Shown: positions 21,636 through 63,363 of the stretch, piece after piece
How positions within the stretch are numbered: the stretch's first letter is position 1
Layout: the number at the start of each line of letters is the position of its first letter
NCBI GenBank assembly: GCA_028293545.1
Contig: JAQGOP010000034.1
Coordinates: 1 to 64,000, forward strand
Reading direction: 5' to 3'
From: Verrucomicrobiota bacterium
GTDB lineage: Bacteria; Verrucomicrobiota; Verrucomicrobiia; Opitutales; Opitutaceae
DNA: 64,000 bases
Notes under the pieces: generated by a model
What the model saw: only the letters and a program-made list of their open reading frames with translations
The model's database searches: none
Told to the model about the DNA's origin: nothing
Translations under genes and position numbers: made by a program

Positions 21636-22454
21636 TTACTGGATGAGGCGCAGGGCGCTCTGAGCGCTCTGGTTGGCTTGGGCAAGCATCGCGGTGCCGG
21701 ACTGCACCAGGATGTTCCATTTCGCGAGCTGAGTACTTTCCTCAGCGACGTCGACATCCGAGATGCGGCTTGAAGCAGCTTCGAGGTTGGCCTTGTTCAC
21801 CGACAGGAGCTCGGTCGCGAACCCGAGGCGGCTCTGCTCGGCGCCGTTGCTGGCGCGGAACTTGGCCACGTTCTGGATCGCATCCGTGACATCCGTCAGG
21901 GTGATGGCGCCGAGGTCGGTCGCCGCCGTCGAGGTCATGGCCGCAACGCCACCGGCCGAGCCGTTCAAGTCCCGGCCAGCGAGGGTCACTGCCGAGCTCG
22001 TGCTGCCGTCTTCCGTAACCGAGACCGTGAGGCCCGAGCTACCGAAGAGGGACACGCCGTTGAACTTCTCGGTCGACAGGGAGGTGAGCTGCGAGGCGAG
22101 TTCAGTGAACTCGGCATCATAGTTCGCCTGGTCGTCCGTGTTCTTGGTCGGATCCGTGTAGAGGGTCTTCAACTCGCTGATGCGGTCGAGGACCTTGCCC
22201 GCAATCTTCAGCGCGCCGTCCTGCGTCTGCAGGAAGGAAACGGCGTTGCCGATATTGCTCGAAACTGCGCCTTGGCGTTTGGCCGCCGCGGACAATTTCA
22301 TGGAAACCGCCATACCACCCGCGTCATCGGCGGGGTTGACGATCTTGGACCCGCTCGAGAGACGGTTAAGGCTTCTCTGGAGCATGGTGTTGGACGCGGC
22401 TAGATTGTTTGCAGCAATCGTTGCCGAGTAGTTGGTGTTAATCACGACTGACAT
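21636..22454 (-). CDS. fliC: Flagellin A
   Basis: 272 aa from ATG 22454 (MSVVINTNYSAT); an upstream in-frame start at 22496 lies within the leader. N-terminal D0/D1 hallmarks are NNLAASNTMLQRSLNRLSSG and NPADDAGGMAVSMKL. The C-terminal D1/D0 end is SRISDVDVAEESTQLAKWNI...MLAQANQSAQSALRLIQ. The short centre (about residues 130-190) means no large D2/D3 surface domains. The Ser/Thr-rich centre (SVTEDGSTSSAVT) offers O-glycosylation sites. The leader has a good ribosome-binding site (AAGGAAAG) overlapped by a CsrA-type motif. Closely similar to flagellin B downstream in coordinates, a tandem duplication with separate promoters. FliS, FliD and FliW partners are encoded nearby. Confidence 0.97.
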   Translation of the reverse strand: MSVVINTNYSATIAANNLAASNTMLQRSLNRLSSGSKIVNPADDAGGMAVSMKLSAAAKRQGAVSSNIGNAVSFLQTQDGALKIAGKVLDRISELKTLYTDPTKNTDDQANYDAEFTELASQLTSLSTEKFNGVSLFGSSGLTVSVTEDGSTSSAVTLAGRDLNGSAGGVAAMTSTAATDLGAITLTDVTDAIQNVAKFRASNGAEQSRLGFATELLSVNKANLEAASSRISDVDVAEESTQLAKWNILVQSGTAMLAQANQSAQSALRLIQ

Positions 22455-22461
22455 GGTTCTT

Positions 22462-22493
22462 TCCTTGATCTTAATGCGACTATCCGTCGTCGC
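22462..22493 (-). promoter_or_regulatory. CsrA-type leader of flagellin A: ACGGA hairpin plus AAGGA at the ribosome-binding site
   Basis: On the minus strand GCGAC-GACGGATA-GTCGC (22493-22476) forms a 5-bp stem whose loop contains ACGGA. AAGGA (22466-22462) overlaps the ribosome-binding site, 7 nt before ATG. The two ANGGA cores are 16 nt apart. CsrA homodimers bind two such sites (known from the Bacillus hag leader). The same layout, with identical spacing, is present before flagellin B. Confidence 0.7.
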
Positions 22494-22505
22494 CACGTGT
22501 CTGGA

Positions 22506-22544
22506 TAATCGGCGCCAGACCGCGCCGTTCGAGGCAAGTGCCTC
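22506..22544 (-). promoter_or_regulatory. Flagellin A promoter region with palindrome
   Basis: On the minus strand GCCGATTA (22513-22506) is a sigma-28 -10 box, identical to the one before the flgM-like gene. The -35 (TCGA) is poor. Just upstream lies the perfect palindrome GAGGCA-CT-TGCCTC (22544-22531). A near match lies at the same distance before flagellin B. The predicted leader is about 45 nt. Confidence 0.55.
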
Positions 22545-22637
22545 AAAGGGGATTCCGCCGCGTTAACGGCGAGAAATGGGAGTTCCCAAAAAGAACCCAG
22601 GTCCCACTCAGAGCAGACAACCGCGAATGCTCTGGCC

Positions 22638-22667
22638 GCGGGGCCGGGGGACTAAGCCCGGCCCCGC
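22638..22667 (-). terminator. Hairpin after flagellin B
   Basis: GCGGGGCCGGG and CCCGGCCCCGC form an 11-bp perfect stem around an 8-nt loop, about 25 nt past the stop codon. No T-run is seen. It probably marks the transcript end or protects it, and lets flagellin A be transcribed from its own promoter. Confidence 0.6.
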
Positions 22668-22692
22668 GCGTGGGTCCTGGTCGCTGCTAGTC

Positions 22693-23511
22693 TTACTGGA
22701 GCAGCTTGAGCGCGACCTGCGCACTCTGGTTCGCCTGAGCGAGCATGGCCGTCCCGGACTGCACGAGTATGTTGTACCTCGCAAGCGAGGTCGATTCTTG
22801 TGCAACGTCCACGTCGGTGATGCGGCTCGAAGCGGCCTCGAGGTTCGCCTTGTTCACTGTCAGCAGCTCGGACGCGAATCCGAGGCGGCTTTGTTCTGCG
22901 CCGTTTTGGGCGCGGAAAGTGGCAACATGCTGGATCGCGTCGGTGAGATCCGTCAGGGCGATCGCCCCGAGGTCCGTCGCGGCCGTGCTGGTGAGAACAC
23001 CGACACCGGTGGCAGTGCTCACCAAGTCGCGGCCCGAGATCGTGACCGCCGTCGTGGTGCTGCCATCCTCGGTAACCGAGACACTGAGGCTCGAGCTGCC
23101 GAAGAGGGAGACGCCGTTGAACTTTTCGCTCGTGAGCGCGCTGAGCTGGTTCTTCAGCTCGGTGAACTCGGCGTCGTAGTTCGCCTGGTCGTCGATGTTC
23201 TTGGTCGGGTCGTTATACAGGGTCTTGAGCTCGCCCATGCGGACCAGCACTTTGCCGGTGACGGAGAGCACGCCGTCCTGCGTCTGCAGGAAGGAGACCG
23301 AGTTTCCGATGTTTTGGGAAACTGCGCCCTGGCGACGAGCCGAGGCCGAAAGTTTCATAGAGACGGCCAGGCCGCCAGCGTCGTCAGCCGGACTGACAAT
23401 CTTCGAGCCGCTTGAGAGCCGGTTAAGGCTCTTCTGCAACATATCGTTGGAGGCGGCGAGGTTGTTCGCCGCGATCGTCGCAGCGAAGTTGGTATTAATT
23501 ACAACAGACAT
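22693..23511 (-). CDS. fliC: Flagellin B
   Basis: 272 aa (MSVVINTNFAAT), the same length as flagellin A and collinear with it without obvious gaps. Conserved D0/D1 features are ASNDMLQKSLNRLSSGSKI, SPADDAGGLAVSMKL, ITDVDVAQESTSLARYNIL and MLAQANQSAQVALKLLQ. Differences concentrate in the central part and a few D1 positions. Its leader has the same hairpin and ribosome-binding site arrangement as flagellin A, and its own promoter region. Two nearly equal flagellins side by side can build a composite filament or be used at different levels; the sequence does not say which dominates. Confidence 0.97.
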   Translation of the reverse strand: MSVVINTNFAATIAANNLAASNDMLQKSLNRLSSGSKIVSPADDAGGLAVSMKLSASARRQGAVSQNIGNSVSFLQTQDGVLSVTGKVLVRMGELKTLYNDPTKNIDDQANYDAEFTELKNQLSALTSEKFNGVSLFGSSSLSVSVTEDGSTTTAVTISGRDLVSTATGVGVLTSTAATDLGAIALTDLTDAIQHVATFRAQNGAEQSRLGFASELLTVNKANLEAASSRITDVDVAQESTSLARYNILVQSGTAMLAQANQSAQVALKLLQ

Positions 23512-23519
23512 GGGTATCT

Positions 23520-23550
23520 TCCTTGATGCTAAGCGCGACGTCCGTGTCGC
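23520..23550 (-). promoter_or_regulatory. CsrA-type leader of flagellin B: ACGGA hairpin plus AAGGA at the ribosome-binding site
   Basis: On the minus strand GCGAC-ACGGAC-GTCGC (23550-23535) forms a 5-bp stem with ACGGA in a 6-nt loop. AAGGA (23524-23520) is in the ribosome-binding site, 8 nt before ATG 23511. Core spacing is 16 nt, exactly as in flagellin A, although the loop length and surrounding bases differ. That points to selection rather than recent copying. Confidence 0.7.
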
Positions 23551-23564
23551 AGTCGGATCAGGTT

Positions 23565-23603
23565 GAATCGGCTCCTGATCGCGCCGGTCTCGGCACTTGC
23601 CTC
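23565..23603 (-). promoter_or_regulatory. Flagellin B promoter region with imperfect palindrome
   Basis: On the minus strand GCCGATTC (23572-23565) lies 53 nt before the ATG (51 nt in flagellin A). GAGGCA-AG-TGCC (to 23591) sits 18 bp upstream of it. The block GGCGCG(A/G)TC between them is also shared with flagellin A. Confidence 0.5.
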
Positions 23604-23914
23604 GACGTGGGGAGCAATCGGAACACTCCGCGAAAAGCTTTATGCGAATTTTCGAAAAACTTTCTGGCCATGAAATCTCCGCCGCGATTTTTACCTATGA
23701 GAAAACGAGGATTTCTCCGCGCGATAAATTTCGCAACTCCTCCCGCGAATCCGCGCCGGCCCGGAAGTTTTAACCACGAATGAACCCAAATCTGGGCACC
23801 GATCTGCCTGAAGTCCGAACCTTCACCGAGCTCCGGCCTTCAGGTTGCCTTCAAGGGGTTCGGGATCCGGATTCGGGTCCGTCCGTGGTTAAAACAGGTT
23901 GGAGGTTTTCGGGC
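23604..23914. other. Intergenic region between flagellin B and fliD, with a long inverted repeat
   Basis: No gene-like frame is convincing here. The stretch is partly A/T-richer than its surroundings (23630-23760). The main structure is a pair of inverted arms, GTTTTAACCACG (23767-23778) and CGTGGTTAAAAC (23884-23895), identical over 12 bp and similar over about 29 bp, roughly 105 bp apart. Inner sequences (CCGAACCTT and AAGGGGTTCGG) are also partly complementary. The AACCACGAATGAACCC type of sequence resembles short dispersed repeats common between genes in Verrucomicrobiota. Confidence 0.5.
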
Positions 23915-39326: not shown

Positions 39327-39346
39327 GTTTTTTTTGTCCAGGTCCA

Positions 39347-39366
39347 CGCGTCCACGGATGGACGCG
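39347..39366. repeat. Inverted repeat between the motE-like gene and fliK
   Basis: CGCGTCCA-CGGA-TGGACGCG is a perfect 8-bp stem with a 4-nt loop. It is preceded by a run of eight T (39328-39335). It resembles the CCACGGATGGAC repeats seen elsewhere between genes of such genomes and may weaken read-through into fliK. Confidence 0.5.
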
Positions 39367-39396
39367 CCAAATTCCACGGAGGGTGCCCCATGATTC

Positions 39397-40845
39397 ATGA
39401 ATCTTTCCACCTCCGTCGAACTTCCCGATTCCCCAATGCCCGTTTCGCCTCCGGCGGGCGCGGCGAAAGCCAACGCCAACGCCGACGCGTCGACGACTGG
39501 TTGCCCGGCGGTCTTTTCTGATTTGCTCGAATCCGAGAACGTCGCTCCTGCTGTTCCCGCGGGCAAAAGTCCCGAGGAGCGCACGAAAGCTTCGGCCGAG
39601 GCCGGAGCCGTTTTGCTGGCCGGCTGGATGGCAGCGACGACGCCTGTGCCGGTCGCTGACCCGACCGTGGGCGAGTGGTCGGCCAATCCTTTGACTTCCG
39701 CCGTCGATGAAACCGGGACGAGCGAGCCGATCGCAGCCTCCGAGGTTCCGAAGGAAAAGGGTGGTTGGAAATCGGTCGGCGGACGTCCGTTCGCGTTGAC
39801 TCCTTCGAGCATACCAGGCCTGAAAACAATCAATGCAGTGACATCCGCGCCGGCAGAAAAAGCAGTTGGCGAGAAATTCCTTCCGACGAAGAACGGCGGA
39901 CCCGAAGCGGAGACGGATGCCGCTGTCGTGTGTCCGGCGGCGATGTTGCCGGAAAAGAAAATTGCACCGGCGATCGTGGATGAGCCCCACGCGCGGGACG
40001 CCTTGGTCGAAACGTCGGTGGAGGCGGATGCGAGCGTGACGACTCGCCTGATCCCGATTCAGCCAAGAACTCCAAGGCCCGAGGCCCGCGTTTCGCCCGA
40101 CGCGAGGAGCGATGGGGAAAAAATTGCCGGGCCCGCCCTGAAATCCTTGCCGACCGATGTGCCGGTGGCGCCGACGGAGGATAAAAAGATTTTAACCGCT
40201 ATACATGAACATGTTGAGAGGGATGGTGCCAACCTTGGCATCCCCGTTGCTATTGCTGGCACCGAGATGAAGTCCAACGCCTCCAATCACCCAAACGCCG
40301 CCGCGCTGTCGCTGCATGGCGTGGTGCCGACCTTGGTCGACCAAGCGGTGGTGCAGGTTTCCGAGGTCATTACCGGCGCAAACGTGACAAGCCAGGCTCA
40401 TCATGCGGTCGAGGCTGTGTTGTCGGCGGCGGAGCGGGTGGGCAACAGCGCGAAGTCGTCGGTGCAGCTCAATTTTTCCGTTGGCAACGCCGATCTTTCC
40501 GTGCGCGTCGAACTTCGCGATGGCGCGGTGCACGCGACGTTCCGCACCGATTCCGCGGAATTGCGCTCCGCGCTCGCGACGGAGTGGCAGTCACGCGGCG
40601 GCGATGCGAACCAGGGGCCGCGGGTGGCCGAAGCGACTTTTGCGAGCGCCTCGAACGGATCGGGCTCGTTTTCGACCTCGAGCGACGGCGCGCAACAGCA
40701 GCGCGATCACGGCAGCCGCCAGTCTGCCGGAAATTTTTTCCGCTCCGCGTCGCAATTTTCCTCGGCGAGCACTCCGGAAAAAAACGCTCCCGAACTCCAG
40801 ACCGCCCGGTCTCGTTCCGACCTCAACCTCTACACGTTCGCCTGA
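39397..40845 (+). CDS. fliK: Flagellar hook-length control protein FliK
   Basis: 482 aa. The long N-terminal part (to about 330) is low-complexity and Ala/Pro/Thr-rich, as in FliK ruler regions. The C-terminal Flg_hook core is SSVQLNFSVGNADLSVRVELRDGAVHATFRTDSAELRSAL (about 350-400), then a Gln/Ser-rich tail. FliK measures hook length and switches export specificity through FlhB. The start is chosen by coding frame; an ATG at 39390, in another frame and better spaced from GGAGGG, would yield only a short peptide. Confidence 0.88.
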   Translation: MNLSTSVELPDSPMPVSPPAGAAKANANADASTTGCPAVFSDLLESENVAPAVPAGKSPEERTKASAEAGAVLLAGWMAATTPVPVADPTVGEWSANPLTSAVDETGTSEPIAASEVPKEKGGWKSVGGRPFALTPSSIPGLKTINAVTSAPAEKAVGEKFLPTKNGGPEAETDAAVVCPAAMLPEKKIAPAIVDEPHARDALVETSVEADASVTTRLIPIQPRTPRPEARVSPDARSDGEKIAGPALKSLPTDVPVAPTEDKKILTAIHEHVERDGANLGIPVAIAGTEMKSNASNHPNAAALSLHGVVPTLVDQAVVQVSEVITGANVTSQAHHAVEAVLSAAERVGNSAKSSVQLNFSVGNADLSVRVELRDGAVHATFRTDSAELRSALATEWQSRGGDANQGPRVAEATFASASNGSGSFSTSSDGAQQQRDHGSRQSAGNFFRSASQFSSASTPEKNAPELQTARSRSDLNLYTFA

Positions 40846-51302: not shown

Positions 51303-52097
51303 ATGAATACCGCCACTGCACCTCTCCCTGGCATGGAAGCTACGCCCGCCGCCGCCTGGCGAGCGTATCAGGGAGTCTCACCGAGCGCCGTCGATGAAAA
51401 GGATTTGATCGAGCGCTATCTGCCCCTCGTCCGCAACGTAGTCGATCGCATCAAGCTCAACGTGCCTGCGCACGTCGACGCCGACGATCTCTACAGCGTG
51501 GGCATCACGGGCCTCATCGCCGCCGTCCGCAAATTCGATCCGGAGCAGGGCAACACCTTCGCCGGCTACGCCTCGATGCGCATCCGCGGGGCGATCCTCG
51601 ACGAACTCCGCCGCATGGACTGGTGCCCCCGCCGCTCGCGGGCCCGCGCCCGAAAACTCAAAGCCGCCATCAACGACGTCGAGCAAAAGCTCGGTCGTGC
51701 GGCGACCGACGAGGAAGTGCGCGCAGCCCTCGGCCTTGAACCTAAAGAATACGCGAAATGGGTCGAAGAAGCCAAGCCAGTCACCTTTATCAACATCGAC
51801 CAGGAGTCCGAGGCCGAGGAAGGCCGCGGAGGCTCGCTGCATGAGCTGCTCGCGGACGACAATGACGTCACGGGCCGCGATACCCTCGAAAAGGAGGAGT
51901 TTGTACAACTTCTCACTCAACGGATCGCCGATCTGCCCGATATACCGAAGAAGATCATCGCTATGTACTATTATGAGAACCTTCGGCTGGCGGAAATCGC
52001 AGCGGTCTTCGGCCTGACGGAATCTCGTATCTGCCAAATTCACGCCCAGACCATCCTTGGCCTCAGGGCGTACCTCCAGCGCGTCCGGGACCGGTGA
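51303..52097 (+). CDS. fliA: RNA polymerase sigma factor for flagellar genes (sigma-28, FliA)
   Basis: 264 aa. Region 2 is LIERYLPLVRNVVDRIKLNVPAHVDADDLYSVGITGLIAAV, with the -10 recognition region RFDPEQGNTFAGYASMRIRGAILDELRRMDWCPR-like. Region 3 is AINDVEQKLGRAATDEEVRAALGL. Region 4 helix-turn-helix is LRLAEIAAVFGLTESRICQIHAQTI. The FliA/WhiG type is clear from DELRxxDWxPR. It should read the TAAA-N15-GCCGATA sites found here. Its gene is transcribed with flhBA from a sigma-54 promoter, giving a two-step cascade. Confidence 0.95.
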   Translation: MNTATAPLPGMEATPAAAWRAYQGVSPSAVDEKDLIERYLPLVRNVVDRIKLNVPAHVDADDLYSVGITGLIAAVRKFDPEQGNTFAGYASMRIRGAILDELRRMDWCPRRSRARARKLKAAINDVEQKLGRAATDEEVRAALGLEPKEYAKWVEEAKPVTFINIDQESEAEEGRGGSLHELLADDNDVTGRDTLEKEEFVQLLTQRIADLPDIPKKIIAMYYYENLRLAEIAAVFGLTESRICQIHAQTILGLRAYLQRVRDR

Positions 52098-61770: not shown

Positions 61771-62235
61771 ATGAACGTCGTTCCTGAACTCTATCCCACG
61801 GACTTTGACAATCCGCCCGCGAACGAGCTGATCCTCCCGCAGGGCATCATCGGCTTCGGCGAGTACCGCCGCGCGGAGCTGCTCTACCTGCCGGACCATC
61901 TCCCTTTCCTCTGGATGAAACTCTACGGCGCCGAGACGCTGCACTTCATCGTGATCGAACCCGGTGGGATCGTCCCCGGCTACGTCCCGGAGATTTTTGA
62001 CGAGGACGCCGCCAATCTCGACATCCGCGACCCCGGCGAAGCGATGATCCTGAATATCGTGACGCTCAAGCGGCAGCAGCCCGTTGAAGCGACGGTCAAC
62101 CTGGTGGGCCCCCTGGTGGTCAACCGCCGCACCCGCGTCGGGCGCCAGCTCGTGATCTCGAATTACTCGCGTTTCAGCGCGCACCACGCTCTGGTAGAAA
62201 ATCCGCAGGCGGCATCCGTCGCTCGCACAACCTGA
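61771..62235 (+). CDS. fliW: Flagellar assembly factor FliW (CsrA antagonist)
   Basis: 154 aa. FliW signatures: [41 protein letters not shown] and the C-terminal [23 protein letters not shown]. In other phyla FliW binds either flagellin or CsrA. Free flagellin titrates FliW, releasing CsrA to repress flagellin translation. Gene order flgL-fliW-csrA matches this system, and the two flagellin leaders here carry CsrA-type sites. Confidence 0.95.
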
Positions 62236-62242
62236 GCCCGCC

Positions 62243-62491
62243 ATGCTCGTCCTTTCCCGCAAAGTTAACGAGTCGATCATCATCGGCGACTCCATCGAAA
62301 TTCGCATCACGCGGATCGAGGGAGACATCGTGAAGATCGGCATCGAGGCCCCGCGTGAGGTCCCGATCTTCCGCAAGGAAGTCCTCCACGACATCGCCGC
62401 CAGCAACAAGGCTGCCGCGGTTCGCCCGCCGCGCCCCGGCGACCTCCCGATCCTGCCGCCGAAGTCCTCCATCATTTCCTCGAAGCTCTAA
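62243..62491 (+). CDS. csrA: Translational regulator CsrA
   Basis: 82 aa. The core [22 protein letters not shown]...[14 protein letters not shown] is intact, including the RNA-binding strands (LVLSRK) and the C-terminal binding residues [10 protein letters not shown] Pro-rich 20-residue tail extends beyond the usual 60-65 aa, which in FliW-regulated CsrA proteins is often where extra contacts form. Seven bases separate it from fliW. Expected targets are the ANGGA sites at 22462-22493 and 23520-23550. Confidence 0.96.
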
Positions 62492-62505: not shown

Positions 62506-63363
62506 ATGAACGTCTCCAACACTCTCTCCGGCTCCTCCGCCACCCGCACCCAGGAAACGCTCGGCCGCTCCCTCAGCCGGCTCGCGTTCAACGCCAAGCT
62601 CGCGTCGTCGCCCACCGACACCGCAACCATCGGCGATGCCAGCACCCTCGCTGCGCAGACCTCCCGCGTGAAGGCCGCCCGCACCGAAGTCCAGGATGCC
62701 ACCTCGTTTGTCCAGGCCGCGGCCGGCAACCTCGACACGATCACCGGCGTCGTCTCGCGACTCGGCGAACTCGCCAAGCTAGCGCAGGACCCCGCCGCGA
62801 AATCGTCGGACCTCTCCAGCTACCAGGACGAATTCAAATCCCTCCAAGACCAGCTGCGCTCCATCGTGGGCGGCAGCACCGCTGAAATCGGCGGCGCCTC
62901 CGATGTTTCTCCGCTCGCCGCGTTCAAGGGCCAGGCGCTCTTCGGTTCCGACAACGAAAACGGGCTGACCGTTTCATCCGGCCAAGGTGCGGTGCTCACC
63001 GTCCCGGGCGTCAATCTCCGCCACGGCAGCATGCTCGGACTCATCAGCCAGAACGAAGCCGGCACTTACGATTCATCTGTCGCCGACTCCGATCTCAGCA
63101 CGACCATCGCCGATGCCCTCACGCAGCTTGGATCGAGCAGCGCGACGATGTCCGCCGCACTTAAGCAACTGGGCGTCGCGTCCGCTTCGCTCGACGTCGA
63201 GAACCAGAACGTAAATTCAGCGGTCCCGACGGTGAGCAACCTGGCCGATGCGCTCGCGTACACCACTTCAGCCAAGGGCGGCCTCTTCGCGCAATTCGAA
63301 GCCGCGATGCGCACGCAGGGAAATCTCTCGGGCCAGTCGGTTCTGAAGGTGCTCGAAGACTGA
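62506..63363 (+). CDS. Divergent flagellin-like protein
   Basis: 285 aa, 14 bp after csrA. Residues about 20-125 follow the flagellin N-terminal D0/D1 pattern aligned with flagellins A/B: SLSRLAFNAKLASSPTDTATIGDASTL in the place of SLNRLSSGSKI-(N/S)PADDAGG, and NLDTITGVVSRLGELAKLAQDPAAKSSDLSSYQDEFKSLQDQL in the place of the matching helix with LYNDPTKN. The end (LGVASASLDVENQNVNSAVPTVSNLADALAYTTSAKGG) is only loosely like D1, and the canonical QANQ...LLQ terminus is missing. No CsrA-type leader is present. It could be a junction, minor filament or regulatory flagellin. Confidence 0.75.
   Translation: MNVSNTLSGSSATRTQETLGRSLSRLAFNAKLASSPTDTATIGDASTLAAQTSRVKAARTEVQDATSFVQAAAGNLDTITGVVSRLGELAKLAQDPAAKSSDLSSYQDEFKSLQDQLRSIVGGSTAEIGGASDVSPLAAFKGQALFGSDNENGLTVSSGQGAVLTVPGVNLRHGSMLGLISQNEAGTYDSSVADSDLSTTIADALTQLGSSSATMSAALKQLGVASASLDVENQNVNSAVPTVSNLADALAYTTSAKGGLFAQFEAAMRTQGNLSGQSVLKVLED

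Follow-up and report, generated by a model that had tools for sequence, protein, structure and literature searches.

Flagellins A and B, whose minus-strand genes follow one another in head-to-tail order, lie ~38 kb away from fliW and csrA within the 64,000-nucleotide stretch of Opitutaceae-type Verrucomicrobiota DNA analyzed here (the window), and the locus raises the question of whether flagellin synthesis in this lineage is governed by a CsrA-FliW switch that acts on the flagellin leaders. An earlier note on this DNA had reported a GCGAC/GTCGC hairpin with ACGGA in the loop and AAGGA at the ribosome-binding site of both leaders, and these elements were confirmed on the minus strand, with AAGGA at positions 22466-22462 for flagellin A and 23524-23520 for flagellin B. 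The 16 nt that it had counted between the two ANGGA cores was found in each leader (21 nt from GGA to GGA), and matches to PF02623 and PF02599 bore out that the same locus encodes FliW and CsrA. The fliW and csrA genes are 7 nt apart and are flanked by a Flagellin_N gene in the flgL place and by a third flagellin-like gene. As a whole, a CsrA-FliW switch on structured flagellin leaders, together with a target at the fliK position, is in our judgment the best explanation (probability, about 0.86). The features on which the argument draws are collected in Table 1.

Table 1. Genes and leader elements of the window, with the basis of each assignment
Feature	Coordinates	Strand	Basis
Flagellin A coding sequence (P0001)	21636..22454	-	Flagellin_N PF00669 match 22041-22442, translation
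Site 2, flagellin A: weak hairpin TC-AAGGAAA-GA around Shine-Dalgarno	22457..22469	-	Reading, alignment
Hairpin 1, flagellin A: GCGAC-GACGGATA-GTCGC, loop holds GGA	22476..22493	-	Direct reading, alignment
H-type pseudoknot, flagellin A: S1 CGGCGC/GCGCCG, S2 GTCTG/CAGAC	22499..22527	-	RNAalifold (S1), anchored scan, pair counts
5′ hairpin P0, flagellin A: TTTGAGGC-ACTT-GCCTCGAA, with covariation among type A leaders	22528..22547	-	RNAalifold, pair counts
Flagellin B coding sequence (P0002)	22693..23511	-	PF00669 match 23098-23499, translation
Site 2, flagellin B: hairpin ATC-AAGGAA-GAT with Shine-Dalgarno in loop	23516..23527	-	Reading, covariation
Hairpin 1, flagellin B: TGCGAC-ACGGAC-GTCGCG (inner GCGAC/GTCGC, 23550-23535)	23534..23551	-	Direct reading, alignment
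H-type pseudoknot, flagellin B: S1 CGGC/GCCG, S2 GATCAGG/CCTGATC	23556..23586	-	Anchored scan, pair counts, flank swap
Putative sigma-28-like promoter, flagellin B: TAAA 23642-23639, CCGAT 23621-23617	23617..23642	-	Motif, inferred
Hairpin 1, fliK-position leader: CGCGTCCA-CGGA-TGGACGCG	39347..39366	+	R1 match, family comparison
Site 2, fliK-position leader: CC-ACGGAG-GG over Shine-Dalgarno	39374..39383	+	Family comparison
fliK-position gene (P0006), between MgtE_N/FlbB-like gene and flgD	39397..40845	+	Name by position
Sigma factor, regions 2, 3, and 4, beside motA/motB	51303..52097	+	Domain regions
FliW, CsrA antagonist (P0003)	61771..62235	+	PF02623 E 4.5e-28; 5dmb FliW E 1.4e-11
CsrA (P0004)	62243..62491	+	PF02599 E 8.6e-23; TIGR00202; 5dmb_D E 6.6e-13

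A scan of the window for twin hairpins found three places at a score of at least 8, namely the fliK position, flagellin B, and one place in coding sequence, compared to 2.8 in shuffled windows, and thus there was no excess; flagellin A scored below 7. Moreover, the folding z-scores of leaders A and B were −1.8 and −0.15, respectively, and neither leader was unusually stable. We conclude that the significance of the hairpin pattern comes solely from relatives and not from the window alone.

Flagellin starts were gathered from 40 named loci and from further genomes of the host's order, which gave an enlarged set of 183 leaders; the nearest flagellin to flagellin A among the named loci came from an uncultured Opitutae genome (L037, 90% identity). 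In the named loci, a hairpin with GGA in its loop was present in 78 of the 85 leaders of flagellins that were at least 60% identical, the window's two included, as against 264 of 4,250 shuffles (6%), and in 14 of 32 leaders of more distant flagellins, as against 57 of 1,600 shuffles. Within the enlarged set, flagellin leaders with enough sequence carried twin GGA hairpins at a score of at least 8, a score that like that for pseudoknots was devised after the first leaders had been inspected, in 58 of 90 near cases and 41 of 90 distant cases, compared to 16 of 250 other leaders drawn from the 317 other open frames of the same loci.

The earlier note had proposed aligning the leaders of relatives in search of covarying stems around a conserved loop GGA, and that comparison was run with a strongly positive outcome. 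The stem of hairpin 1 carried compensatory changes from leader to leader (GCGAC/GTCGC, GCCCT/AGGGC, GTGGC/GCCAC, GCAGC/GCTGC, and others) with GGA unchanged, and in a blind alignment the GGA of the first loop was invariant while the surrounding stem changed. In a seed alignment of 25 sequences, picked for having both hairpins, 9 of the 10 pairs of the two hairpins varied on both sides, and the covariation was 0.546, compared to 0.188 in shuffled alignments, with 0 of 500 shuffles reaching 0.546. Spacing from GGA to GGA was 17 to 23 nt in 77 of 80 near leaders and 26 to 28 nt in the remaining three, such that the exact 16-nt gap between cores is not fixed, and it ranged from 19 to 39 nt in 54 distant leaders. 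A further upstream hairpin with GGA in its loop, bringing the number in one leader to as many as three, was seen by eye in L020, L024, L027, L028, L053, L097, L105, and L120. Separately, hairpin 1 was retained in L057 and L060 (Chthoniobacteraceae/Spartobacteria), whose ribosome-binding site, AAGAAAGG, contains no GGA.

Three features had been overlooked in the earlier note: a stem around the second site, a pseudoknot farther upstream, and the fliK-position leader at 39347-39383. The stems at site 2 covary in distant leaders (GGTC/GACC, TATATC/GATATA, AAC/GTT, and TAATTC/GAATTA). When pairing was counted with a fixed geometry and no selection of stems, the site-2 arms of 76 distant leaders gave 267 Watson-Crick cells, compared to 180 ± 7.8 (maximum, 207) after the 3′ arms were redistributed among leaders. 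Among near relatives the stem was nearly invariant, with 217 cells versus 195.6 permuted for a loop of 6 and 148 versus 142.8 permuted, no excess, for a loop of 7. Site 2 of flagellin A has just two pairs, and ATC..GAT is found in most type A relatives. The covariation argues that the second GGA site is also a hairpin, with its stem flanking the Shine-Dalgarno sequence, and both GGA sites occupy hairpin loops with covarying stems, as in a leader of the Campylobacter jejuni flaA type.

The parallel drawn earlier had been Bacillus hag, and it stands insofar as hag has two CsrA sites, but the closest proven architecture is that of the C. jejuni flaA stem-loops. According to the available portions of the Bacillus subtilis papers, the hag sites span A51-A55 and C75-G82 (PMC8523840), the downstream one lies over the Shine-Dalgarno sequence, and, as in the window, fliW and csrA are drawn as a single region and the C terminus of CsrA is extended (PMC6529632, PMC7652899). 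The part of the C. jejuni report at hand describes two flaA stem-loops whose hexaloops contain ANGGA, the GGAs being 21 nt apart and the second stem-loop covering the ribosome-binding site, with compensatory stem changes in relatives, FliW as antagonist, and lowered CsrA binding when the first-loop GGA is changed to UGA (PMC4894983). The leaders here resemble flaA in the two ANGGA hairpins, the position of the second one at the ribosome-binding site, the 21-nt GGA spacing, and the presence of FliW, whereas fliW lies apart from csrA in C. jejuni (PMC4894983) and next to it here. In addition, the excerpted account of a SELEX-derived CsrA ligand, RUACARGGAUGU, gives it a stem of at most 4 pairs and mostly a six-nucleotide loop with GGA, and this artificial single site resembles site 2 of some relatives (AUC-AAGGAU-GAU) (PMC7652899).

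The window's CsrA has R44 (RNA binding), I51 and N55 (FliW), and a C-terminal extension; in C. jejuni CsrA, V51 and N55 contact FliW, as given in the accessible part of PMC7829508. N occupied position 55 in 25 of 28 distinct FliW genomes compared; of the other three, G037 has T, whereas G026 and G158 have four inserted residues that move the N to position 59 (by eye). In all 28 genomes fliW adjoins csrA with a gap of −13 to 37 nt. CsrAs from five FliW-lacking genomes do not have N55. A small chance is left to the alternative that CsrA binds the leaders and is released by an sRNA or by titration on abundant flagellin mRNA rather than by FliW: the flaA leader of C. jejuni titrates CsrA alongside FliW, in the portion available of PMC4894983, and several leaders per cell here would sum to a sponge, but both the adjacency of fliW and csrA in the 28 genomes compared and the missing N55 where fliW is missing argue for release by FliW.

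Among 273 genomes of the host's order, csrA was found in 62, fliW in 57, and a flagellin match in 66. Both csrA and flagellin were present in 56 genomes and neither in 201, with csrA alone in 6 and flagellin alone in 10, and fliW was always accompanied by csrA. Within the window's own family, csrA and fliW were both present in each of the 19 flagellin genomes drawn and both absent from the 16 genomes listed as having no flagellin. Given this co-occurrence with flagellin, CsrA appears to be specialized for the flagellum in this group. As separate observations, four loci of family f26, with genomes of ~1 Mb (L221-L224 in G107, G176, G059, and G140), have csrA without FliW or a detected flagellin; their four CsrAs lack N55 (by eye across an insertion), and three end at 58 to 59 residues with no C-terminal tail. 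The CsrA of L227 (G253) has G at position 55, no accompanying FliW, and a gammaproteobacterial look, possibly reflecting contamination or transfer. In the window, the third, divergent flagellin-like gene (62506-63363, Flagellin_N present) directly follows csrA, and in several relatives a flagellin match likewise lies just past csrA.

The distribution of the twin hairpins was surveyed with R1, a covariance model of them; no type A leaders went into the model, and the filters applied in the search were strict. At E values up to 0.05, R1 matched 43 of the 273 genomes, 41 of them among the 66 with a flagellin match and 2 among the 207 without; it failed to match 25 of the 66 flagellin-bearing genomes and gave flagellin A only 19.7 bits. 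The downstream gene was read for 26 matches, 20 of which preceded flagellins (two recognized from the few residues left before a contig ended), 2 preceded a fliK-position gene, 1 lay inside flhA, 1 preceded a 30-aa frame in a flagellin-less genome, and 2 were unclear. A window match in flhA (48380) was rejected as a leader target, being the same coding motif as the flhA match among those 26. Phylum-wide, at E values up to 0.01, R1 matched 23 of 387 genomes. Three of them are outside the host's order, and a simple pattern search of their loci yielded no flagellin start. The apparent spread beyond the order is carried by leaders from Verrucomicrobiales (L065-L067), a further member of the Verrucomicrobiota (L063), and the two Chthoniobacteraceae/Spartobacteria loci mentioned above.

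The two relatives in which R1 matched before a fliK-position gene pointed to the homologous place in the window, where the match at 39346-39387, the window's fourth best and weak alone (E 0.33), lies directly before the gene at 39397. That gene has no convincing family match of its own and was named from its place before flgD. The comparison around the preceding gene gave a match in 41 of 61 genomes. In the 30 best loci of the family, one of them the window's own, twin GGA hairpins at a score of at least 8, by a measure written after these leaders were seen, were present in 18 leaders, compared to 3 of 6,000 shuffles, with the other 12 below that score. The stems vary between genera yet pair, and in one of the 18 (L179) the first hairpin lies over the ribosome-binding site and the second inside the coding part. 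Other leaders of the window had been said to lack the pattern. That statement holds for the gene earlier called fliD (start 23973), which has no GGA at its ribosome-binding site, and for the third flagellin-like gene (start 62506), which has neither GGA at that site nor a twin-hairpin leader, but it fails for the fliK-position leader. We propose that the fliK-position gene is a second CsrA target in the same cell, and, provided that the gene is fliK, such a target would link the supply of filament to the control of hook length. C. jejuni CsrA also binds other flagellar mRNAs, including Cj0040, tabled beside fliK (Cj0041) and flgD (Cj0042); fliK itself appears ~4-fold enriched in that table, read without column heads, and here it is the fliK-position gene that has twin hairpins of its own (PMC4894983, available part).

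One could suppose that the hairpins are CsrA-independent structures, serving 5′ stability or ribosome standby, and that AAGGA is merely a good ribosome-binding site. AAGGA at site 2 is indeed expected of any Shine-Dalgarno sequence, and the pseudoknot, for which no part in CsrA action is known, is an additional conserved structure of the leaders. Such a device would not readily account for a first-loop GGA that stays invariant in a blind alignment though its stem changes, for a second GGA likewise held in a covarying loop, for the recurrence of the GGA pair in the unrelated fliK-position leader, or for the way in which csrA and fliW track flagellin, and we regard it as improbable. The covarying hairpins, the tracking of flagellin by csrA and fliW, and the key residues of CsrA support the earlier prediction that a FliW-CsrA-flagellin switch works in this lineage. 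Counting against the switch are the ten flagellin-match genomes without csrA, some flagellin paralogues without the first GGA, and the two leaders (L057 and L060) whose Shine-Dalgarno sequence has no GGA.

Upstream of hairpin 1, RNAalifold recovered P0, stem 1 (CGGCGC/GCGCCG), and hairpin 1 from 32 type A leaders and did not recover the site-2 stem, and on type B leaders it recovered hairpin 1 alone. The loop of stem 1 pairs with a segment ~5 nt before hairpin 1, giving an H-type pseudoknot. RNAalifold cannot give pseudoknots; the type B pseudoknot entered the pair counts as a structure specified from the first row and from the anchored scan. Pair counts for the whole named structures exceeded all 500 shuffles and all slid versions, both on alignment A4 (all 32 type A leaders) and on alignment A5 (36 of 48 type B leaders; most of the 12 left out were more distant). 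A pseudoknot anchored at hairpin 1 scored at least 9 in 41 of 64 near leaders (shuffles, 3.2%), 11 of 16 middle leaders (0.9%), and 20 of 55 distant leaders (1.7%), compared also to 26 or 20 of 317 other leaders with two comparable anchors. With stem 2 selected blind to stem 1, closure of stem 1 around it was seen in 30 of the 40 distant leaders, versus a mean of 6.6 (maximum, 13) when flanks were exchanged between leaders, and in 31 of the 51 near leaders, versus 18.9 (maximum, 28). Without anchoring, the scan separates poorly from other real leaders: score 9 was reached by 71 of 250 of these, by 64 of the 90 near flagellin leaders, and by 38 of the 90 distant ones. The case for the pseudoknot is therefore built on the anchored scan, the flank swap, and the pair counts.

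A pattern that we take to reflect the sigma-28 consensus, TAAA-N15-CCGAT, lies at −131/−110 of flagellin B. It was found in 20 of 183 leaders, counted with no shuffle control, 18 of which have TAAA between −135 and −121, and most leaders were unmatched; flagellin A has a weak candidate at a similar place (by eye). A sigma-28-like promoter for flagellin B and 17 other leaders would put the pseudoknot inside a leader of ~100 nt, and the sigma factor beside motA/motB is a candidate FliA for the flagellin-leader promoters. GCCGATT upstream of hairpin 1 was also considered as a sigma-28 −10 element; the promoter reading was dropped because the flanking arms pair above shuffles and differ between genera, because the same letters close the pseudoknot, and because flagellin B has TAAA-N15-CCGAT at the more distal place. 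The flaA leader of C. jejuni differs in being 45 nt long (PMC4894983), with no room for the pseudoknot, whereas here the covarying pseudoknot lies upstream of the hairpins and the putative sigma-28-like promoter at ~−110 from ATG.

The RNA elements, their covariation, the co-occurrence of the genes, and the key residues are observed in the sequences, and CsrA bridging and repression, release by FliW, and flagellin feedback are carried over from B. subtilis and C. jejuni. On that analogy, the folded flagellin leader very probably allows CsrA to hold back filament synthesis until released by FliW. The flagellin mRNA would begin with the ~100-nt leader, comprising a 5′ hairpin, the H-type pseudoknot, the ANGGA-loop hairpin, and the AAGGA-loop hairpin. 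One CsrA dimer would bridge both GGA loops, ~21 nt apart, and block the ribosome, and FliW, encoded beside csrA, would bind the CsrA tail and lift the block. Cytoplasmic, unexported flagellin would hold FliW, such that filament protein would be made only during export, and the fliK-position gene would answer to the same cell's CsrA.

The switch itself is of a known kind; as far as searched, novelty lies in its probable extension to Verrucomicrobiota, in the pseudoknot, and in the proposed target at the fliK position. Neither a CsrA-FliW flagellin switch in Verrucomicrobiota nor a flagellin-leader pseudoknot or a fliK-position CsrA target was described among the matches listed in a search of open-licence papers and abstract starts, and a FliW survey that names many phyla does not have Verrucomicrobiota among them in its available part (PMC4682653). 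The findings would extend the CsrA-FliW flagellin checkpoint to another phylum, and they place the two-hairpin architecture of C. jejuni in an unrelated group.

The pseudoknot may have a role of its own. In eight hand-picked leaders that lack the first GGA or the whole of hairpin 1, the pseudoknot scored at least 8 in 7 (shuffles, 15.8%), at least 9 in 6 (6.2%), and at least 10 in 3 (2.3%), and because it is found in most of these few GGA-lost leaders, it probably does something other than presenting hairpin 1 to CsrA. An H-type pseudoknot in a 5′ leader, kept in 7 of those 8, could suggest a ligand-sensing riboswitch (for c-di-GMP, for example) as the main control, with CsrA secondary. That is very unlikely: the letters of its stems and loops vary freely between genera (by eye), unlike those of a small-molecule pocket, and the variation favors a structural or protein-recognized element. 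Moreover, at gathering score the only Rfam match in the window was a tRNA gene at 1273-1345, and 16 flagellin loci held no Rfam family at E values up to 1. A subthreshold c-di-GMP-II-GAG match in the window (E 6.9) was rejected, as it is out of register with the pseudoknot and absent from the 16 loci. FliW is one candidate partner for the pseudoknot, since FliW is said to bind the hag leader in B. subtilis as well, for a reason as yet unexplained in the part of PMC6529632 at hand.

Tentatively, and at odds clearly below even, the pseudoknot could be a new class of regulatory RNA that is independent of the CsrA hairpins. The leader would then have two inputs that tune the flagellin paralogues and the fliK-position gene singly, with some paralogues escaping CsrA by loss of the first GGA; the pseudoknot might, for example, be an element touched by FliW or by unexported flagellin, or a guard of the mRNA 5′ end. 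A covarying pseudoknot with no Rfam match is a testable puzzle, and family f2, with its many flagellin copies and separate leaders, some without the first GGA, offers natural experiments. Five of the eight GGA-lost leaders appear, from their first residues, to belong to one flagellin paralogue of that family, in which the stem stays and the loop reads ATGA or AAGA (the clusters L101, L102, L104, L107, and L115). In these clusters, a second nearby flagellin paralogue (MALSILSN...) is without the first hairpin.
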